64,000 nucleotides of DNA, from NCBI RefSeq assembly GCF_030413175.1, contig NZ_CP129212.1, positions 2,542,001 through 2,606,000 on the forward strand, written 5' to 3'. The DNA is from Bradyrhizobium roseum (lineage in GTDB: Bacteria > Pseudomonadota > Alphaproteobacteria > Rhizobiales > Xanthobacteraceae). Below the pieces are notes generated by a model. It worked only from the letters and a program-made list of their open reading frames with translations, did no database searches and was not told the DNA's origin. Of this stretch, positions 10,026-37,540 are shown piece after piece; position 1 is the stretch's first letter; each line of letters starts with the position of its first letter. Position numbers and translations under genes: made by a program.

Positions 10026-11264
10026 TCAAAACCCAAATCCCAATTGCGTTGCTTTCGGCTTGAATCTTTCCGCCAAACCAGCACCATCGAGCAGATGCAG
10101 CGACGGCCGGTGGTCGCTGAGCACGATGAATGGCAGCGCCTTCTTTTGCGGAATATGCAGCCGCGCCAGATCGGCGACCCGGATCGAGGTCAGGCGGCGC
10201 GTGGCGATGATGCGGTCGACCGCCTTGGTGCCGAACCCCGGCACCCGCAACAGATCTTCGCGACTGGCGGTGGCGACATCGAGCGGAAAGCGGTCGCGGT
10301 GGCGCAGCGCCCAGGCCAGCTTGGGGTCGATGTCGAGCGACAGCATGCCTTTGGTCTCATCCACGATCTCGTCGGCGTCGAAACCGTAAAACCGCATCAG
10401 CCAGTCGGCCTGGTAGAGCCGGTGCTCGCGAATGAGCGGCGGCGAAACCAGCGGCAGCGCGCGGCTGGCATCGGGGATCGGGCTGAAGGCCGAATAATAC
10501 ACGCGCTTGAGCCGGTAGGAGCCGTAGAGATTGGCGCTGGTGTCGAGGATGGTCTTGTCGCTGGCCGCATCCGCGCCGATGATCATCTGTGTGCTCTGGC
10601 CGGCAGGCGCGAACCGCGGCGGCTTTGTCTTCGTCGCGGTCCTGACGTTCTCTTTGGTTTCGTCGAGCTTCAGGCGCAGACGGCCCATGGTGCGGCGGAT
10701 CGCGCGCACGTCCTTTTCCGGCGCGAATTTGGCCAGGCTGTTTTCTTCCGGCATTTCGATGTTGATGGAAAGTCGGTCGGCATATTTACCGGCTTCCGCG
10801 ATCAGCGCGTCGTCGGCCTCAGGGATGGTCTTGAGGTGGATGTAGCCGCGGAAGCGATGCTCCTCGCGCAATTTTCGTGCGACGCTTACCACCTGCTCCA
10901 TGGTGTAATCGGCGCTGCGGATGATGCCGGAGGAGAGAAACAATCCCTCGATGTAGTTGCGGCGATAGAAGTCGATCGTCAGCTGCACCACCTCGTCGAC
11001 CGTGAAGCGCGCGCGCGGTACGTTCGAGGACGTACGGTTGACGCAATATAAGCAATCGTAATTGCAGGCGTTGGTGAGCAGCACTTTCAGCAGCGAGATG
11101 CAGCGGCCATCCGGCGCGTAGGAATGGCAGATGCCCATGCCCGGCGCGGTCGAGCCGAGGCCCTTGCCGTCGCTGGAATCCCGCTTCTCGGTGCCCGAGG
11201 AGGCGCAGGAAGCGTCGTATTTCGCGGCATCCGCCAGGATCTCCAGCTTGCGTTGCACATCCAT
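10026..11264 (-). CDS. Radical SAM DNA modification/repair protein (TIGR03916 type)
   Basis: 412 residues. The radical SAM cluster motif CNYDCLYC is at Cys67, Cys71 and Cys74, in a SPL-like context, and binds a [4Fe-4S] cluster and S-adenosylmethionine. The C-terminus has a helix-hairpin-helix pattern (LLRVPGFGTKAVDRII), pointing to DNA contact. This family is consistently found with DUF4130-UdgX fusions and is annotated as putative DNA modification/repair protein; the reaction is unknown. ATG 11264 is chosen because the family starts with MDVQRKLEILADAAKYDA; the longer in-frame reading to 11492 would cross the SOS box and the imuA start. Transcription probably starts near the SOS box at 11347, so SOS control is plausible. 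Confidence 0.88.
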   Translation of the reverse strand: MDVQRKLEILADAAKYDASCASSGTEKRDSSDGKGLGSTAPGMGICHSYAPDGRCISLLKVLLTNACNYDCLYCVNRTSSNVPRARFTVDEVVQLTIDFYRRNYIEGLFLSSGIIRSADYTMEQVVSVARKLREEHRFRGYIHLKTIPEADDALIAEAGKYADRLSINIEMPEENSLAKFAPEKDVRAIRRTMGRLRLKLDETKENVRTATKTKPPRFAPAGQSTQMIIGADAASDKTILDTSANLYGSYRLKRVYYSAFSPIPDASRALPLVSPPLIREHRLYQADWLMRFYGFDADEIVDETKGMLSLDIDPKLAWALRHRDRFPLDVATASREDLLRVPGFGTKAVDRIIATRRLTSIRVADLARLHIPQKKALPFIVLSDHRPSLHLLDGAGLAERFKPKATQLGFGF

Positions 11265-11346
11265 TATTGAATCCCTTTGATTCCATTCACGAATCGACCA
11301 GCCGTCGATCTCGATTGACTCTGCCGGGCCGGTTAGCTTTATATTA

Positions 11347-11361
11347 GAACATATCATGAAC
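11347..11361. promoter_or_regulatory. LexA-binding SOS box
   Basis: GAAC-ATATCAT-GAAC, the exact alphaproteobacterial LexA operator (GAAC/GTTC direct repeats with a 7-base gap). It lies 68 bases before the imuA ATG and 83 bases before the divergent radical SAM start, so one operator may control both sides. Confidence 0.88.
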
Positions 11362-11428
11362 AAATGAGCCAGCCGCGGGTTCATTCGGGAAGAAGCGGTA
11401 ACGGCAAAATTTTCTGAAGGAGCGGGGC

Positions 11429-12223
11429 ATGAGCACCGCACGCACACGCACGCTTGCGAATTTGCGCGGGCGCATCGAACGGATCGGTACACATGGCGAG
11501 ACGGGCGACCTCAACAAGGTCGCGCTGGGCCATGCGGCCGCGGATTCCGTGCTGCAGGGTGGGCTCGCGGTCGCCGCGGTGCATGAAGTGTTCGCCGAGG
11601 GCCATCAGAGCGCGACGGCCACGGGTTTTATTGCGGGACTGGCGGGAAGGGTGTCGCCGCGCCGGCCGCTGGTCTGGGTGCGGCAGGATTTTTCGGAAAT
11701 CGAATCCGGTGCGCTGTCGATGCAGGGGCTATGCGAACTCGGCCTCGATCCGCGGCTGCTGGTGACCGTGCGCGCGCCCGACACCGACGCCGCGTTGCGC
11801 ACCGCCGCCGACGCGCTGGCCTGCGATGCGCTCGGCGCGGTCGTACTGGAGGTCTGGGGCGTGGCGCGTCAGCTTGATCTCGTCGCCAGCCGAAAACTCA
11901 CGCTGGTCGCGGCCGCCTCCGGCGTCACCGCGCTGCTGTTGCGGATGGCAGCAGAGCCGCGGCCCTCGACCGCGGAAACCAGATGGATCGTGCGCGCGGC
12001 GCATTCGCCGCCGTCGGCGCCATGGACCGCCTGGGGCGCGCCGGTGTTCGACGCGCAACTGGTTCGTCACCGTCATGGCCCGGTCGGCCGCTGGATCATG
12101 GAATGGAATTGCGATGAGTGCCTCTTCAGCGAACCGGCGGCGCATCCTCAGCCTCTGGCTGCCACGCCTGCCCATCGACCGCATCAAGCGCAAGCTTTCG
12201 GCCACCAGCGACGCGCTGGATAA
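11429..12223 (+). CDS. imuA: ImuA, mutasome accessory protein
   Basis: 264 residues, first gene of the SOS-inducible imuA-imuB-dnaE2 cassette, which carries out mutagenic translesion synthesis. ImuA is a RecA-fold relative that links the mutasome to RecA. Features seen are GGLAVAAVHEVFAEG near residues 40-55, the PLVWVRQDFSEIESG strand, and the conserved end region VGRWIMEWNCDE. There is no canonical Walker A lysine. A ribosome-binding site, GAAGGAG, precedes ATG 11429. The 3' end overlaps imuB by 110 bases in another frame, so the two are tightly coupled. SOS box at 11347-11361. Confidence 0.88.
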   Translation: MSTARTRTLANLRGRIERIGTHGETGDLNKVALGHAAADSVLQGGLAVAAVHEVFAEGHQSATATGFIAGLAGRVSPRRPLVWVRQDFSEIESGALSMQGLCELGLDPRLLVTVRAPDTDAALRTAADALACDALGAVVLEVWGVARQLDLVASRKLTLVAAASGVTALLLRMAAEPRPSTAETRWIVRAAHSPPSAPWTAWGAPVFDAQLVRHRHGPVGRWIMEWNCDECLFSEPAAHPQPLAATPAHRPHQAQAFGHQRRAG

Positions 12224-13700
12224 AGCTCCCTCCGTGGTCGTCGCTAAACAGCACAACGCCATTGTGATCCATGCCCTCGACGATCTCGCCGTGCATGCCG
12301 GCCTCTCGATCGGCCTGCCGCTCGCCAATGCCCGCGCCATCTGTCCCGAACTCACGGTGTTCGACGCCGATGAAGCCGCCGACCGCAAGACGCTGGATGA
12401 CATCGCCGACTGGTGCGACCGCTTTACCCCGCTGGTGGCGCTCGATCCGCCGTATGGGCTCTATCTCGACATCACCGGCTGTGCCCATCTGTTCGGCGGC
12501 GAACGCGCGCTGCTGCAGATCGTCTGCGGCGCGCTCAGCCGCCGCGGCTTTGCCGTCAGTGCTGCGATCGCGAGCACCTCAGTCTGCGCCCGCACGCTGA
12601 CACGACAGGCTTCCGGAAAGATCATTGCAGAAGGCGAGGAGGCCGCGGCTGTTGCGCCGCTGCCGGTCTCCGCGCTCGGCGCAGGCGAGGCCATCACCAT
12701 CGGCCTGCGCCGTGCGGGATTGAAGACCATCGGCGATGTTGCCACACGCGCGCCGCACGAAATCACGGCCCGGTTCGGCGCCCATTTCACGGCGCTATTG
12801 GCGCAGGCACTGGGCGAGGGCGATGCGCCGATCAGCCCGCGAAAGCCGCTGCCGGATTACATCGTCGAAAAGCGCTTTCCCGAGCCTGTCGCCACCGACA
12901 CCGTGATCGCGCTGAACCTGTCCGCGCTCGCCGCCATGCTGGTCGCGGCGATGGACAAACAGGGCAAGGGCGCGCGGCGGCTGGACGCCAGCTTCTTCCG
13001 CACCGACGGTGCGGTGCGCACGATCTCGGTCGAGACCGGCCGTCCGGTGACAAAGCCGGAGGTGATCGACCGCCTGTTCCGCGAGCGGCTCGATGCGCTC
13101 AACGATCCGCTCGACCCAGGCTTCGGTTTCGATTTGATCAGGCTTTCTGCCGGCCGCACCGAGATCGTGGTGCAGCAGCAGCGCGACCTCGACGCCAACG
13201 TGCACGACAATGACGAGCTTTCCGCGCTGATCGACCGCATCGCCGCGCGGATCGGCGGCAAGCGCGTCGTCGTGCATCTGCCGCAGGAGACCCACATCCC
13301 CGAACGCGCGGTGATGGCCGTCGCCGCCCAGCATCATCTGGCGATCGCCGTGCAGGCGGCGTGGCCGGAGCGCATCGAGAGCGAGCCGCCGCTGCGGCCG
13401 TTGCGGCTGTTCGATCGGCCGGAACCGATCAACGTGCCGTTTGCCACCGTGCCAGACGGTCCGCCGCATCAGTTCACCTGGCGCCGCGTGACGCATGCGG
13501 TGGTGCGGGTGGAGGGGCCCGAACGCGTCGCGATGGAATGGTGGAAGCAGAACGGCGACGCCCCGACGCGGGACTATTTCCGGATCGAGGACGAGGCTGG
13601 ATTGCGTTTCTGGATCTTTCGCGATGGGCTCTATGAACAGGCGGATGGGCAGGGCGAGCCCGCGCCGGTCCGCTGGTTCGTGCACGGACTGTTCGCATGA
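12114..13700 (+). CDS. imuB: ImuB, catalytically inactive Y-family polymerase relative
   Basis: 528 residues. It matches ImuB (DinB/UmuC superfamily): SLWLPRLPIDRIKRKL at the N-terminus, GLPLANARAICPEL, then GLYLDITGCAHLFGGE. The acidic catalytic positions of active Y-family polymerases are not present at the start (LWLP replaces the usual DxDxFFA). This fits the known role as a non-catalytic hub that tethers DnaE2 to the beta clamp. ATG 12114 is chosen because homology begins there; an open frame extends upstream through imuA. The last codons overlap dnaE2 (ATGA at 13697-13700). Confidence 0.88.
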   Translation: MSASSANRRRILSLWLPRLPIDRIKRKLSATSDALDKAPSVVVAKQHNAIVIHALDDLAVHAGLSIGLPLANARAICPELTVFDADEAADRKTLDDIADWCDRFTPLVALDPPYGLYLDITGCAHLFGGERALLQIVCGALSRRGFAVSAAIASTSVCARTLTRQASGKIIAEGEEAAAVAPLPVSALGAGEAITIGLRRAGLKTIGDVATRAPHEITARFGAHFTALLAQALGEGDAPISPRKPLPDYIVEKRFPEPVATDTVIALNLSALAAMLVAAMDKQGKGARRLDASFFRTDGAVRTISVETGRPVTKPEVIDRLFRERLDALNDPLDPGFGFDLIRLSAGRTEIVVQQQRDLDANVHDNDELSALIDRIAARIGGKRVVVHLPQETHIPERAVMAVAAQHHLAIAVQAAWPERIESEPPLRPLRLFDRPEPINVPFATVPDGPPHQFTWRRVTHAVVRVEGPERVAMEWWKQNGDAPTRDYFRIEDEAGLRFWIFRDGLYEQADGQGEPAPVRWFVHGLFA

Positions 13701-16700
13701 ACGGCCCCGCGAACATTCCCTTCTATGCCGAAATCGGCATCACCAGCAATTTCTCCTTCCTGCGCGGCGGCTCCGATCCGCGCGCCTATGTCCATCAGGC
13801 CAACGAACTCGGCATTCCCGCGATCGGCATCGCCGACCATAACACGCTGGCCGGCGTGGTCCGCGCCTGGAAGGAACTGGACAACCCTGAGGTCACCAAC
13901 AAACCCAAATTTTTGGTCGGCGCACGCATCGTCTTCATCGACGGCACGCCCGATATTCTGGTCTATCCGCGCGACCGCGCAGCCTACGGCCGGCTCTGCC
14001 AGTTGCTGACTCGCGGCAAGCGCGGCGACGGCATCACGCGGATCGAGAAGGGCGATTGCCATCTGCGCTTCGACGATCTGATGGATTTTGCCGAGGGGCA
14101 GCTTGTGGTGGTGGTGCTGCCGCATCGTTTCGATGCGGCGAGCGCACAGAAAATTCTGCTACGCCTGAAGGACAGTGGCGCCGATAACGTCTGGCTTGCC
14201 GCGAGCCTGCTCTATCGCGGCGACGACAAGCGCCGGCTGGCGCGGCTGCATCGTCTGGCGGTTGCCGTCAAAGTGCCGCTGCTGGCGACCAACGAGGTGC
14301 TGTATCACCATCCCGCCCGCCGCCGGTTGCAGGACGTGCTGACCTGCATCCGCGAGAAGACCACCATCGACGCCGTCGGCCGGCGGCTGGAGGCCAATGC
14401 CGAGCGTTACCTGAAGCCGCCGCGAGAAATGGCGCGGCTGTTCCGCGACCTGCCCGAGGCGATCGCGGAAACCATGCGCTTTGCGGGACGCATTTCGTTT
14501 TCGCTCGACCAGCTCAAATACCAATATCCCGACGAGCCGGTGCCGCCGGGCAAGACCGCGCAGGAGCACCTGGAAGACCTGACCTGGGCCGGTGTCAAAA
14601 CCTATTTCGACGACGATATCGACGACAAGCTGCGCGCCACCCTGCGCAAGGAACTCGACCTGATCGCTGAGCTCAATTACGCGCATTATTTCCTGACCGT
14701 GCACGACATCGTGCAGTACGCGCGAAGCCAGAACATTTTGTGCCAGGGCCGCGGTTCGGCGGCGAACTCGGCCGTCTGCTACGTGCTTGGCGTCACCTCG
14801 GTCGATCCGACCAAGGTCGATCTGCTGTTCGAGCGCTTCATCTCCAAGGAACGGCTGGAGCCGCCCGACATCGACGTCGATTTCGAACATTCGCGGCGGG
14901 AAGAGGTGATGCAATATGTGTATCGCCGCTACGGCCGCCACCGTGCCGCGATCATCGCCACCGTCATCCATTATCGTCCGCGCAGCGCGATCCGCGACGT
15001 CGGCAAGGCGCTCGGGCTGACGGAGGACGTCACGGCGGCGCTGGCCGACACCGTGTGGGGAAGCTGGGGCAAGGGCCTCAACGAGATGCAGATCCGGCAG
15101 GCCGGGCTCGATCCCCAGAATGCGATGGTGGAACTCGCGGTCGAGCTTGCCACCGAACTGATCGAATTTCCCCGCCATCTGTCGCAGCATGTCGGCGGCT
15201 ACGTGCTGACGCAGGACCGGCTCGACACCTATGTGCCGATCGGCAACGCCGCGATGGACGACCGCACCTTCATCGAATGGGACAAGGACGACGTCGACGC
15301 GCTTCATATGATGAAGGTCGACGTGCTGGCGCTGGGCATGCTGACCTGCATCCGCAAATGTTTTGACCTGATTGCCGACCACAAGGGCGAGCGCTGGGAA
15401 CTCGCCAGCGTCGAGCAGGACGACAAGAATGTGTACGACATGCTGTGCCGCGGCGAATCGCTCGGCGTGTTCCAGGTCGAGAGCCGCGCCCAGATGAACA
15501 TGCTGCCGCGCCTGAAGCCGCGCACCTTCTACGACCTCGTCATTGAAGTGGCGATCGTGCGTCCCGGTCCGATCCAGGGCGATATGGTGCACCCGTATCT
15601 GCGTCGGCGAAACAAGATCGAGCAGGTGAGCTATCCGTCGCCGGCGCCCGAGCACGGCGAACCGGATGAGCTTTACAAGGTGCTGCACAAGACGCTTGGC
15701 GTGCCGCTGTTCCAGGAACAGGCGATGCGGATCGCAATCGAAGCCGCAAAGTTCACCTCCGAGGAGGCCAACGGCCTGCGCCGCGCGATGGCGACGTTTC
15801 GCAATGTCGGCACCATCGGCAAGTTCGAAGAGAAGATGATCGGCAACATGATCGCGCGCGGCTACGATCCGGAATTTGCCAAGAATTGCTTTGACCAGAT
15901 CAAGGGGTTTGGCAGTTACGGTTTTCCGGAAAGCCACGCCGCGAGTTTTGCCCAGTTGGTCTATATCTCCTCATGGCTGAAGCATTATCATCCCGATGCC
16001 TTCTGCTGCGGCCTGCTGAATTCGCAGCCGATGGGCTTTTATGCCCCGGCGCAGATCGTCGGCGACGCCCGCGCCAACGGCGTCGAGGTGCGCGAGGTCG
16101 ATGTATCCTTCAGTTTTGCGCAGAACACGCTGGAGGAGGGGGCGGTGAAATATTGCGCGGTGCGTTTGGGTTTCCGCCAGATCGACGGATTCAGTTGGGT
16201 CGATGAGGATGAGGAAAGGTTGAAAAGAAGCCAGCTGTCATTCCGGGGCGCGCCTCTTGGCGCGAACCCGGAATCCATGTGGCCGCATCCGCGTGGAGAA
16301 ATGGATTCCGGGTTCTCGCTGCGCGAGCCCCGGAATGACGATGGAGCGAAAGACTGGGCCGACCGCATCATCGCCGCCCGCAAACGCCGGCCCTTCACCT
16401 CGCTCGAGGAATTCGCCCGCGACACCGCGCTGCCGAAGCGCGCGCTGATCCTCTTGGCCGACGCCGACGCCTTTCGCTCCGTCGGGCTCGATCGACGCGC
16501 CGCGTTATGGGCGGTGCGGCGGCTGCCCGACGATGTACCGCTGCCGCTGTTTCAGGCCGCGATCGCCCGCGAGCTGCCCGACGAGAACGCAAAGCCGCTG
16601 CCGGAGATGCCGCTGCCCGAGCAGGTGGTCGCCGACTATCAGACGGTCCGCCTGTCGCTGAAGGGGCACCCGATGGAGTTTTTGCGCGAGAGATTCACCA

Positions 16701-17164
16701 GCGAACGCATCGTCGCTTGCCGCCACGTCAATCCGCGGCATGACAAGCGCCGCGTCCGCTGCGCCGGCGTGGTGCTGGTGCGTCAGCGCCCGGGCAGCGC
16801 CAAGGGCGTCGTCTTCATGACGCTGGAGGACGAAACCGGCATCGCCAATATCGTGGTGTGGCCCAAGGTGATGGAGCAGTACCGCAAGGAGGTGATGGGC
16901 GCCCGCCTGATCCTGGTCGAGGGCTATATCCAGAGCAGTCCGGAAGGGGTGACGCATCTGGTGGCGCAGCGGATGGTCGACCGCTCCCACGATCTGGTCG
17001 GCCTCGCCAACGATACGCCAGGCCGCAAACATGCCGTGCCGGCCGGCGCCGCGCTGATCGAGCCGCTCAACGACGACCGCCGCGCACACCCCGATGCGCC
17101 GGCCCAGAAAATCCGCCACCCGCGCAACGTCCGCATCCTGCCGCCGTCGCGGGATTTTCACTGA
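13697..17164 (+). CDS. dnaE2: Error-prone DNA polymerase DnaE2 (ImuC)
   Basis: 1155 residues, C-family polymerase of the SOS mutasome. An N-terminal PHP domain begins YAEIGITSNFSFLRG. The polymerase core has CQGRGSAANSAVCY and the catalytic PDIDVDF (about residues 391-397). A C-terminal OB-fold region (RCAGVVLVRQRPGS, MTLEDETGIANIVVW) follows. Residues about 847-881 are encoded by an in-frame palindromic repeat (16237-16339) and do not look like polymerase sequence; they lie between GFSWVDEDEERL and DWADRI, at the start of the region after the core. Reading frame and flanking motifs are intact, so the enzyme is probably still made, with a 34-35 residue insert. The start overlaps the imuB stop. 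Confidence 0.95.
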   Translation: MNGPANIPFYAEIGITSNFSFLRGGSDPRAYVHQANELGIPAIGIADHNTLAGVVRAWKELDNPEVTNKPKFLVGARIVFIDGTPDILVYPRDRAAYGRLCQLLTRGKRGDGITRIEKGDCHLRFDDLMDFAEGQLVVVVLPHRFDAASAQKILLRLKDSGADNVWLAASLLYRGDDKRRLARLHRLAVAVKVPLLATNEVLYHHPARRRLQDVLTCIREKTTIDAVGRRLEANAERYLKPPREMARLFRDLPEAIAETMRFAGRISFSLDQLKYQYPDEPVPPGKTAQEHLEDLTWAGVKTYFDDDIDDKLRATLRKELDLIAELNYAHYFLTVHDIVQYARSQNILCQGRGSAANSAVCYVLGVTSVDPTKVDLLFERFISKERLEPPDIDVDFEHSRREEVMQYVYRRYGRHRAAIIATVIHYRPRSAIRDVGKALGLTEDVTAALADTVWGSWGKGLNEMQIRQAGLDPQNAMVELAVELATELIEFPRHLSQHVGGYVLTQDRLDTYVPIGNAAMDDRTFIEWDKDDVDALHMMKVDVLALGMLTCIRKCFDLIADHKGERWELASVEQDDKNVYDMLCRGESLGVFQVESRAQMNMLPRLKPRTFYDLVIEVAIVRPGPIQGDMVHPYLRRRNKIEQVSYPSPAPEHGEPDELYKVLHKTLGVPLFQEQAMRIAIEAAKFTSEEANGLRRAMATFRNVGTIGKFEEKMIGNMIARGYDPEFAKNCFDQIKGFGSYGFPESHAASFAQLVYISSWLKHYHPDAFCCGLLNSQPMGFYAPAQIVGDARANGVEVREVDVSFSFAQNTLEEGAVKYCAVRLGFRQIDGFSWVDEDEERLKRSQLSFRGAPLGANPESMWPHPRGEMDSGFSLREPRNDDGAKDWADRIIAARKRRPFTSLEEFARDTALPKRALILLADADAFRSVGLDRRAALWAVRRLPDDVPLPLFQAAIARELPDENAKPLPEMPLPEQVVADYQTVRLSLKGHPMEFLRERFTSERIVACRHVNPRHDKRRVRCAGVVLVRQRPGSAKGVVFMTLEDETGIANIVVWPKVMEQYRKEVMGARLILVEGYIQSSPEGVTHLVAQRMVDRSHDLVGLANDTPGRKHAVPAGAALIEPLNDDRRAHPDAPAQKIRHPRNVRILPPSRDFH
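16237..16339. repeat. Palindromic repeat family A copy 1, inside dnaE2
   Basis: Outer arms GTCATTCCGGGGC / GCCCCGGAATGAC and inner arms GAACCCGGAATCCAT / ATGGATTCCGGGTTC, total 103 bp. The element lies wholly inside dnaE2 and is translated without a stop. Related elements outside genes are at 22779-22902 and 37435-37540. Confidence 0.92.
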
Positions 17165-22778: not shown

Positions 22779-22902
22779 GTCATTCCAGGGCGCGCGCAGC
22801 GCGAGCTATGATGTGCAAATGCACATCTGAGAGATCCATCGAGCCGCATCTTAGCCGTGAAATGGATTCCGGGTTCAGCCCTGCGGACTACCCCGGAATG
22901 AC
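22779..22902. repeat. Palindromic repeat family A copy 2
   Basis: Outer arms GTCATTCCAGGGCGC and CCCCGGAATGAC, with an inner right arm AATGGATTCCGGGTTC as in the dnaE2 copy. The inner left arm is degraded and the middle is longer (124 bp in all). It is intergenic, beyond the 3' end of the SDR gene. Confidence 0.8.
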
Positions 22903-37434: not shown

Positions 37435-37540
37435 GTCATTCCGGGATGGTCCGAAGGACCAGACCCGGAATCCATCTACCGGCATAACGTGCCGTCACGA
37501 TGGATTCCGGGTTCGATGCTTCGCATCGCCCCGGAATGAC
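37435..37540. repeat. Palindromic repeat family A copy 3
   Basis: Outer arms GTCATTCCGGG and CCCCGGAATGAC, inner arms GACCCGGAATCCATC and GATGGATTCCGGGTTC; 106 bp. It lies between the hydrolase and the TolC-type gene, ten bases beyond the latter's stop, where it could fold in the mRNA. Closest in structure to the copy within dnaE2. Confidence 0.9.

Follow-up and report, generated by a model that had tools for sequence, protein, structure and literature searches.

The window analysed here is a 64,000-nucleotide stretch of the Bradyrhizobium roseum genome (contig NZ_CP129212.1, positions 2,542,001 to 2,606,000). It carries dnaE2, whose product scored 1568.6 bits against the NCBIfam model NF004225 for error-prone DNA polymerases (cut-off 939) and contained the expected PHP, polymerase, fingers, HHH_6 and OB domains (Pfam). 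The overall predicted fold matched DnaE-type polymerases, e.g. 7pu7 and 5fkv. With an open frame and conserved domains, the enzyme has probably retained polymerase activity. A radical-SAM-like ORF, named by eye, occupies positions 10026-11492 of the minus strand just before imuA-imuB-dnaE2. The features needed in the following are:

11429 to 12223, plus strand: probable imuA, named from its position; the Pfam search gave no match.
12090 to 13700, plus strand: imuB-like Y-family polymerase homologue, directly 5' of dnaE2 (PF00817, PF11799, PF20114); putatively imuB.
13697 to 17164, plus strand: dnaE2, error-prone C-family DNA polymerase, host of the element; 1155 amino acids without a stop.
16178 to 16348, plus strand: coding sequence of the variable loop within the helix-hairpin-helix region (PF14579), comprising residues 828-884, from QIDGF to the residue preceding DWADRI.
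16237 to 16339, plus strand: the element, an in-frame inverted dimer of CGTC-type REPs (Br-REP2-like), read as SFRGAPLGANPESMWPHPRGEMDSGFSLREPRND.
16237 to 16277, plus strand: left REP with tag (T)GTC, stem ATTCCGGG/CCCGGAAT of 8 bp, inner hairpin of 19 bases and tail CCA, following the tag, stem and tail rule of PMC3733652.
16278 to 16301, plus strand: spacer of the dimer; the same spacer type occurs both ways round in dnaE2 of congeners.
16302 to 16339, plus strand: right REP, inverted; like the published Br-REP2 consensus when compared by eye.
16352 to 16501, plus strand: second part of HHH_6 (PF14579 profile positions 36-89), the sole part matched in the window protein.
22779 to 22902, plus strand: related element with a nested small palindrome, gatgtgcaaatgcacatc, like those in several dnaE2 loops.
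37435 to 37540, plus strand: related element that adjoins, at its 3' end, a gene identified by eye as TolC-like; it serves below as a control.

The outer arms of the element, GTCATTCCGGGGC (16237-16249) and GCCCCGGAATGAC (16327-16339), match exactly over 13 bases each. Folded as single-stranded RNA, the 103 bp reached -74.2 kcal/mol, compared with a mean of -41.0 kcal/mol for shuffled versions (z -8.5), and none of 200 shuffles equalled this value. The initial annotation had described a 103-bp palindromic element lying in the dnaE2 frame without a stop, and the exact arms, the fold and the ORF at 13697-17164 bear this out. It had also estimated that about 35 residues were added. The element does encode about 34-35 residues; the net gain is a different figure, the window's loop of 57 residues being 27 longer than the 30-residue loop of thirteen congeners and about 51 longer than that of loci with 5-6 residues. 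A search of Rfam returned sub-threshold matches to eukaryotic microRNA families only (best 29.9 bits, gathering threshold 168), and these were set aside as likely chance resemblance between hairpins.

The stem of CGTC repeats is 8-9 bp long with complementary AT at positions 1-2, and ATTCCGGG/CCCGGAAT forms such a stem of 8 bp in both halves. The loop of these repeats is given as 4-5 bp; in the left half the stem arms are instead separated by 19 bases, which form a hairpin, and PMC3733652 gives other loop lengths for Bradyrhizobium CGTC-1 that could cover a 19-base loop. The unpaired tail, mostly CCA, was found as GGAATCCA after the left stem, where the CCA is also part of a 15-bp inner arm within the dimer. 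The end tags of the dnaE2 copy are TGTC on the left and GACG on the right, and those of the copies at 22779 and 37435 are CGTC and GACG. By eye, the Br-REP2 consensus CGAGATTCCGGGTTCGGCTCTTCGAGCCGCCCCGGAATGA and the right half, ATTCCGGGTTC...GAGCCCCGGAATGA, agree in both stem arms and differ in the loop. The tag, the AT-starting 8-bp stem, the CCA tail, the inverted partner and the likeness to Br-REP2 therefore identify an element type that is already known.

In the predicted structure, residues 852-883 lie between helices 837-850 and 887-897 and have pLDDT values below 50. The loop is most likely disordered and permissive, with selection on the polymerase preserving its frame. HHH_6 was matched unbroken across the site in L173 and L176, while in the window protein and in L141 the match began only after the insert, at profile position 36. 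In the Bradyrhizobium locus L142, which has a short loop, HHH_6 was likewise matched from profile position 35 only, so it was the enlarged loop of 30 residues, not the repeat, that first broke the match.

Insertions of at least 8 residues elsewhere were few in 93 full-length proteins, the N-terminal end and single rows aside: three rows had one near residue 111, and the same two rows had one near 130 and near 1120. A 20-residue DnaE2 insertion near residue 111, not obviously REP-derived, is common to the Bradyrhizobium loci L044, L063 and L079. In the PHP region, the Rhodopseudomonas loci L160 and L165 have 48-56 extra DnaE2 residues near 130 (SWPG..RPST...DARVKPGHDGG) that resemble repeat-derived sequence. 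L190, from a Bosea MAG, has a repeat-like DnaE2 insert (VIPGDRRETRDP..., PHPEEPRSG...) in the neighbouring loop before RLGFRQIDGF, and low-complexity, repeat-like inserts occur one helix later, past the AR motif, in DnaE2 of L087, L088, L092 and L099 from other genera.

Loop content was compared across 177 dnaE2 loci (L026-L202), of which 172 were scored, giving 156 distinct rows. Of the five others, L090, L164 and L170 run into contig ends, L199 carries an internal deletion, and L190 has its insert in another loop. Ninety-one rows were counted as Bradyrhizobium, because they carry the genus code of the window's genome or because the records are so named; they include L140, titled Frankia sp. 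RB7, and L059/L144, a genome with that genus code which is also titled Bradyrhizobiaceae bacterium. The segment from QIDGF to (W)A has 5-6 residues in 26 of the 27 loci scored among L173-L201, the more distant alphaproteobacteria. Short loops of 24-30 residues were found in 15 of the 91 Bradyrhizobium rows, 13 of them with exactly 30 residues, and the remaining 76 rows had long loops of 35-124 residues with 76 different peptides. Sorted by peptide signatures that we defined ourselves, 73 of these 76 fell into four repeat-like classes, namely A (the CGTC REP, 48 rows), C (12), B (8) and D (5); two were classed as other and one as a singleton, G. In the genomes tested, classes A, B and C proved to be dispersed repeats, B with 22-95 and C with 52-131 matches per genome on both strands in five genomes each. 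Two related genera (codes g60 and g80) had repeat-like inserts of classes E or F in the same loop (8 rows).

The 12-base arm pattern, with one mismatch allowed, occurred six times in the window, as three pairs, compared with 1.38 expected. The window's own genome gave 80 element matches on both strands at no fewer than about 41 distinct places, a lower bound, as 40 of 107 first-look candidates were scored. The copies at 22779-22902 and 37435-37540 both lie outside recognisable genes, as the initial annotation had stated in calling them intergenic. A further member of the family, with several left-arm copies, is located upstream of a dnaG-like gene in the same genome (L216 / L265). At 35 distinct places of the about 41 or more, dnaE2 was the sole recognisable gene with an internal copy; the test required the element to be preceded by 50 residues and followed by 30, and thus left gene-end copies uncounted. 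Ten ORFs spanning elements elsewhere in this genome gave no Pfam match (0/10), and their third-position G+C was 0.50-0.67, compared with 0.83 for dnaE2. Two more element-spanning ORFs, an antisense one in L001 and one in L011, had values of 0.78 and 0.59. When proteins were searched with element peptides, all 19 matches of DnaE2-like length carried DnaE2-type Pfam domains. A shorter peptide query gave 11 matches, three of them DnaE2 fragments. Five of the eight others were examined: three have Pfam domains and carry the peptide near the C-terminus, and two have none and carry it inside ORFs that may be spurious.

Two intergenic sites, a small number, served as controls, both picked because they are occupied in the window's genome. 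With up to one mismatch allowed, arms were present at the tolC-like site in 3 of 30 genomes (300 bases searched, no spacing rule), at the dnaG-like site in 9 of 30 (350 bases, arms 40-220 apart) and at dnaE2 in 19 of 30 in each of the two genome sets (spacing rule on). The search stretch and the spacing rule thus differed slightly among the three sites, and chance arms can only inflate the intergenic counts. A dnaE2 loop of more than 34 residues was found in 27 of 30 and 26 of 30 genomes of the two sets. Fisher's test on 27 versus 3 of 30 gave a p value of 3e-10, which is descriptive only, since the rows are related and any insert was compared with full A elements. Persistence at dnaE2 may reflect protection by the frame: imprecise losses would break the gene and so be removed by selection, and in intergenic DNA they would not be.

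We give a probability of roughly 0.75 to the reading that the element is a dispersed CGTC REP dimer in a permissive loop of DnaE2, where the frame is under selection and the contents keep changing. The initial proposal of a mobile palindromic unit tolerated inside a gene, in the manner of the Rickettsia RPEs, is supported by these data as far as a dispersed unit in frame is concerned. Among 22 genomic copies, 16 of the 44 copy-orientations would be in frame and free of stops at the dnaE2 site, so that a swap for another copy would often be harmless to the frame. In 14 pairs picked for like structure, pN/pS was 0.45 in the loops and 0.087 in the flanks, which suggests that the peptide is weakly constrained and perhaps nearly neutral while the frame is kept. 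Synonymous divergence in the same pairs was lower in the loops (pS 0.159) than in the flanks (0.263), a difference compatible both with loops that are younger or homogenised and with a biased choice of pairs.

The same observations bear on the proposal that the inserts are adaptive, i.e. that the palindrome-derived peptides alter the grip of DnaE2 on DNA and tune induced mutagenesis, and that the loop has been diversified for this. The position in the helix-hairpin-helix region and the occupation of the loop in 76 of 91 rows agree with it, and REPs in repair genes have been speculated to modify activity (PMC3733652). We nevertheless consider it unlikely, because the peptides vary freely in sequence and length (35-124 residues), the loop is predicted with low confidence, its pN/pS is high relative to the flanks and 15 of 91 rows have no insert.

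A permissive loop whose contents keep changing, as we favour, also fits the internal structure of the inserts. By eye and from the listing of stems, nested palindromes were found in L058, L061, L043, L064, L027, L067 and L141. A full A unit lies within or beside the remains of an older A in L058, L061, L043, L064 and L027, and a small palindrome lies inside the A units of L041 and L067. The loops of P0063 and P0096 differ solely in one nested piece, and L036, L137 and L202 resemble internal deletions. One spacer type occurs in opposite orientations between flanking hairpins that have stayed in place, e.g. in L026 and L028, suggesting local inversion or replacement. A rough scoring of the spacers in the 48 A loops gave 18 c1+, 7 c1- (several with low scores), 4 c2+, 2 c2- and 17 neither. 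L044 and L079 diverge by no more than 3% in 12 of the 14 windows compared, each of 120 bases, yet carry different repeat families in the loop.

A tree of the flanks was built from 125 rows, after removal of loops below 18 residues, save four outgroups, and of L083, L087, L088, L092 and L099; its 26 'empty' rows from outside Bradyrhizobium include the four outgroups. Over the 91 Bradyrhizobium rows it required at least 30 changes of loop class and at least 8 changes between short and long loops, and a tree built on these rows alone required 32 and 11. The 13 rows with a loop of 30 residues were rejected as one clade (p-AU 2.4e-5, from a quick tree and for a group named after the tree had been seen), and one gain followed by vertical descent is therefore not a sufficient history. 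As these 13 rows have a similar linker peptide in common and are nevertheless rejected as one clade, loop alleles have probably been exchanged between lineages, presumably by recombination, although gene-tree error is possible. No recombination tract stood out clearly in distance profiles of 22 close pairs, which were unaligned, so that three of them lose register far upstream.

The many class changes, the different families in close pairs and the other repeat-like inserts in two related genera might also be expected if the loop were a favoured target and each filled lineage had gained its insert independently, without inheritance from species to species. This appears improbable, since the left edge of A, the motif S(F/S)R, is at the same codon position in 60 of the 76 long Bradyrhizobium loops, many of classes B, C and D included, and the B inserts have junction residues in common (by eye). 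Both features point to common descent plus remodelling. Occupation of the loop is old, and its contents turn over as elements nest in one another, parts are deleted and, probably, alleles are exchanged. The initial suggestion that the insertion followed the divergence of this strain is therefore untenable: 76 of 91 Bradyrhizobium rows are long at the same site, 60 of these 76 keep the left-edge codon position, and the content has been replaced repeatedly.

Hairpin-driven bypassing by the ribosome is known elsewhere, and the element forms a very stable hairpin in the coding strand. If it were bypassed or removed from the RNA, it would be absent from the final protein and no tolerance by the enzyme would be needed. 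A skipped element would not need an open frame, and the loop was stop-free and in frame in 172 of 172 scored loci over lengths of 5 to 124 residues (the scan took same-frame anchors only, and the five unscored loci had no frameshift in the loop), which makes this explanation very improbable. An artefact of assembly or annotation, of which one might think because the draft contigs L164 and L170 stop at the dnaE2 loop, repeats being a frequent cause of broken assemblies, can practically be dismissed, since the window's genome consists of a single contig and in-frame inserts also appear in independent records and in several more genomes of one contig each.

The favoured reading, a tolerated REP dimer with selected frame and changing content, would imply the following course of events. 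An ancestor of most Bradyrhizobium would have acquired a CGTC REP dimer in the helix-hairpin-helix loop of DnaE2, a loop already enlarged in this family. As the loop is probably disordered and permissive, the ribosome would read through and the polymerase would carry an extra peptide. Loop versions that broke the frame would have been removed by selection on the polymerase. Within this limit, palindromes would have inserted into older palindromes, spacers would have come to lie in both orientations, internal parts would have been deleted and loop alleles would probably have been swapped between lineages.

The loops document, in many natural replicates, how small palindromes enter coding sequence that must stay strictly in frame, and how they nest, invert and become shorter there. 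Since the job of the host enzyme is error-prone DNA synthesis, the question of whether the inserts are neutral or alter mutagenesis becomes testable. We mention as a speculation of low probability that the DnaE2 loop is a standing trap, in which palindromes insert into palindromes, alleles cross species and an SOS polymerase keeps gaining peptides next to DNA. If such peptides did change the action of DnaE2, mobile repeats would tune the mutation machinery of their host.

Mobilisation as a REPIN by a RAYT was considered and rejected. The window's genome has two Y1_Tnp genes, neither flanked by repeat copies, as neither GTC(A/G)TTCC nor GGAA(T/C)GAC was found within about 1.5 kb. This agrees with PMC3733652, which reports no association of CGTC repeats with transposase genes. 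Target-site duplications, one of the marks of a MITE derived from an insertion sequence, were not seen by eye at the dnaE2 and tolC-like sites.

Our searches of the open-licence literature found no report of the DnaE2 loop as a recurrent site of repeat insertion, and among the matches listed PMC3733652 was the only one joining intragenic REPs with DnaE2. That study, published in 2013, names DnaE2 among REP-tagged proteins, so the kind of element was known; what these searches did not turn up in print is the scale, with one loop occupied genus-wide by several repeat classes. Br-REP1 and Br-REP2 of Bradyrhizobium japonicum USDA 110 were described in PMC5082802. The right half of the dnaE2 element is similar to Br-REP2, and the Br-REP1 consensus equals the centre of some dnaE2 inserts (L043: CCGGAATCTCGAGATTCCGG). 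In PMC5082802, whose text contains neither 'in-frame' nor 'intragenic', these repeats are placed in intergenic regions and 3' UTRs. The Rickettsia palindromic elements are likewise in-frame palindromes in conserved genes, and PMC3733652 assigns RPE-4 and RPE-6 to the CGTC superfamily. In R. conorii many genes are hit by RPEs, whereas in the genome studied here dnaE2 is the one recognisable gene with an internal copy among 35 element places; its insert is in frame and open. The CGTC-tagged REPs of PMC3733652 are also close, with the same tag, the 8-bp AT-starting stem, the CCA tail, inverted dimers, an occurrence in Bradyrhizobium and intragenic copies. In that account, REPs in genes of one functional category do not share a site, the exception being recB of two Xanthomonas species. 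Intragenic REPs were known until now as scattered cases, unlike the one loop of one gene described here, which several repeat classes occupy throughout a genus.
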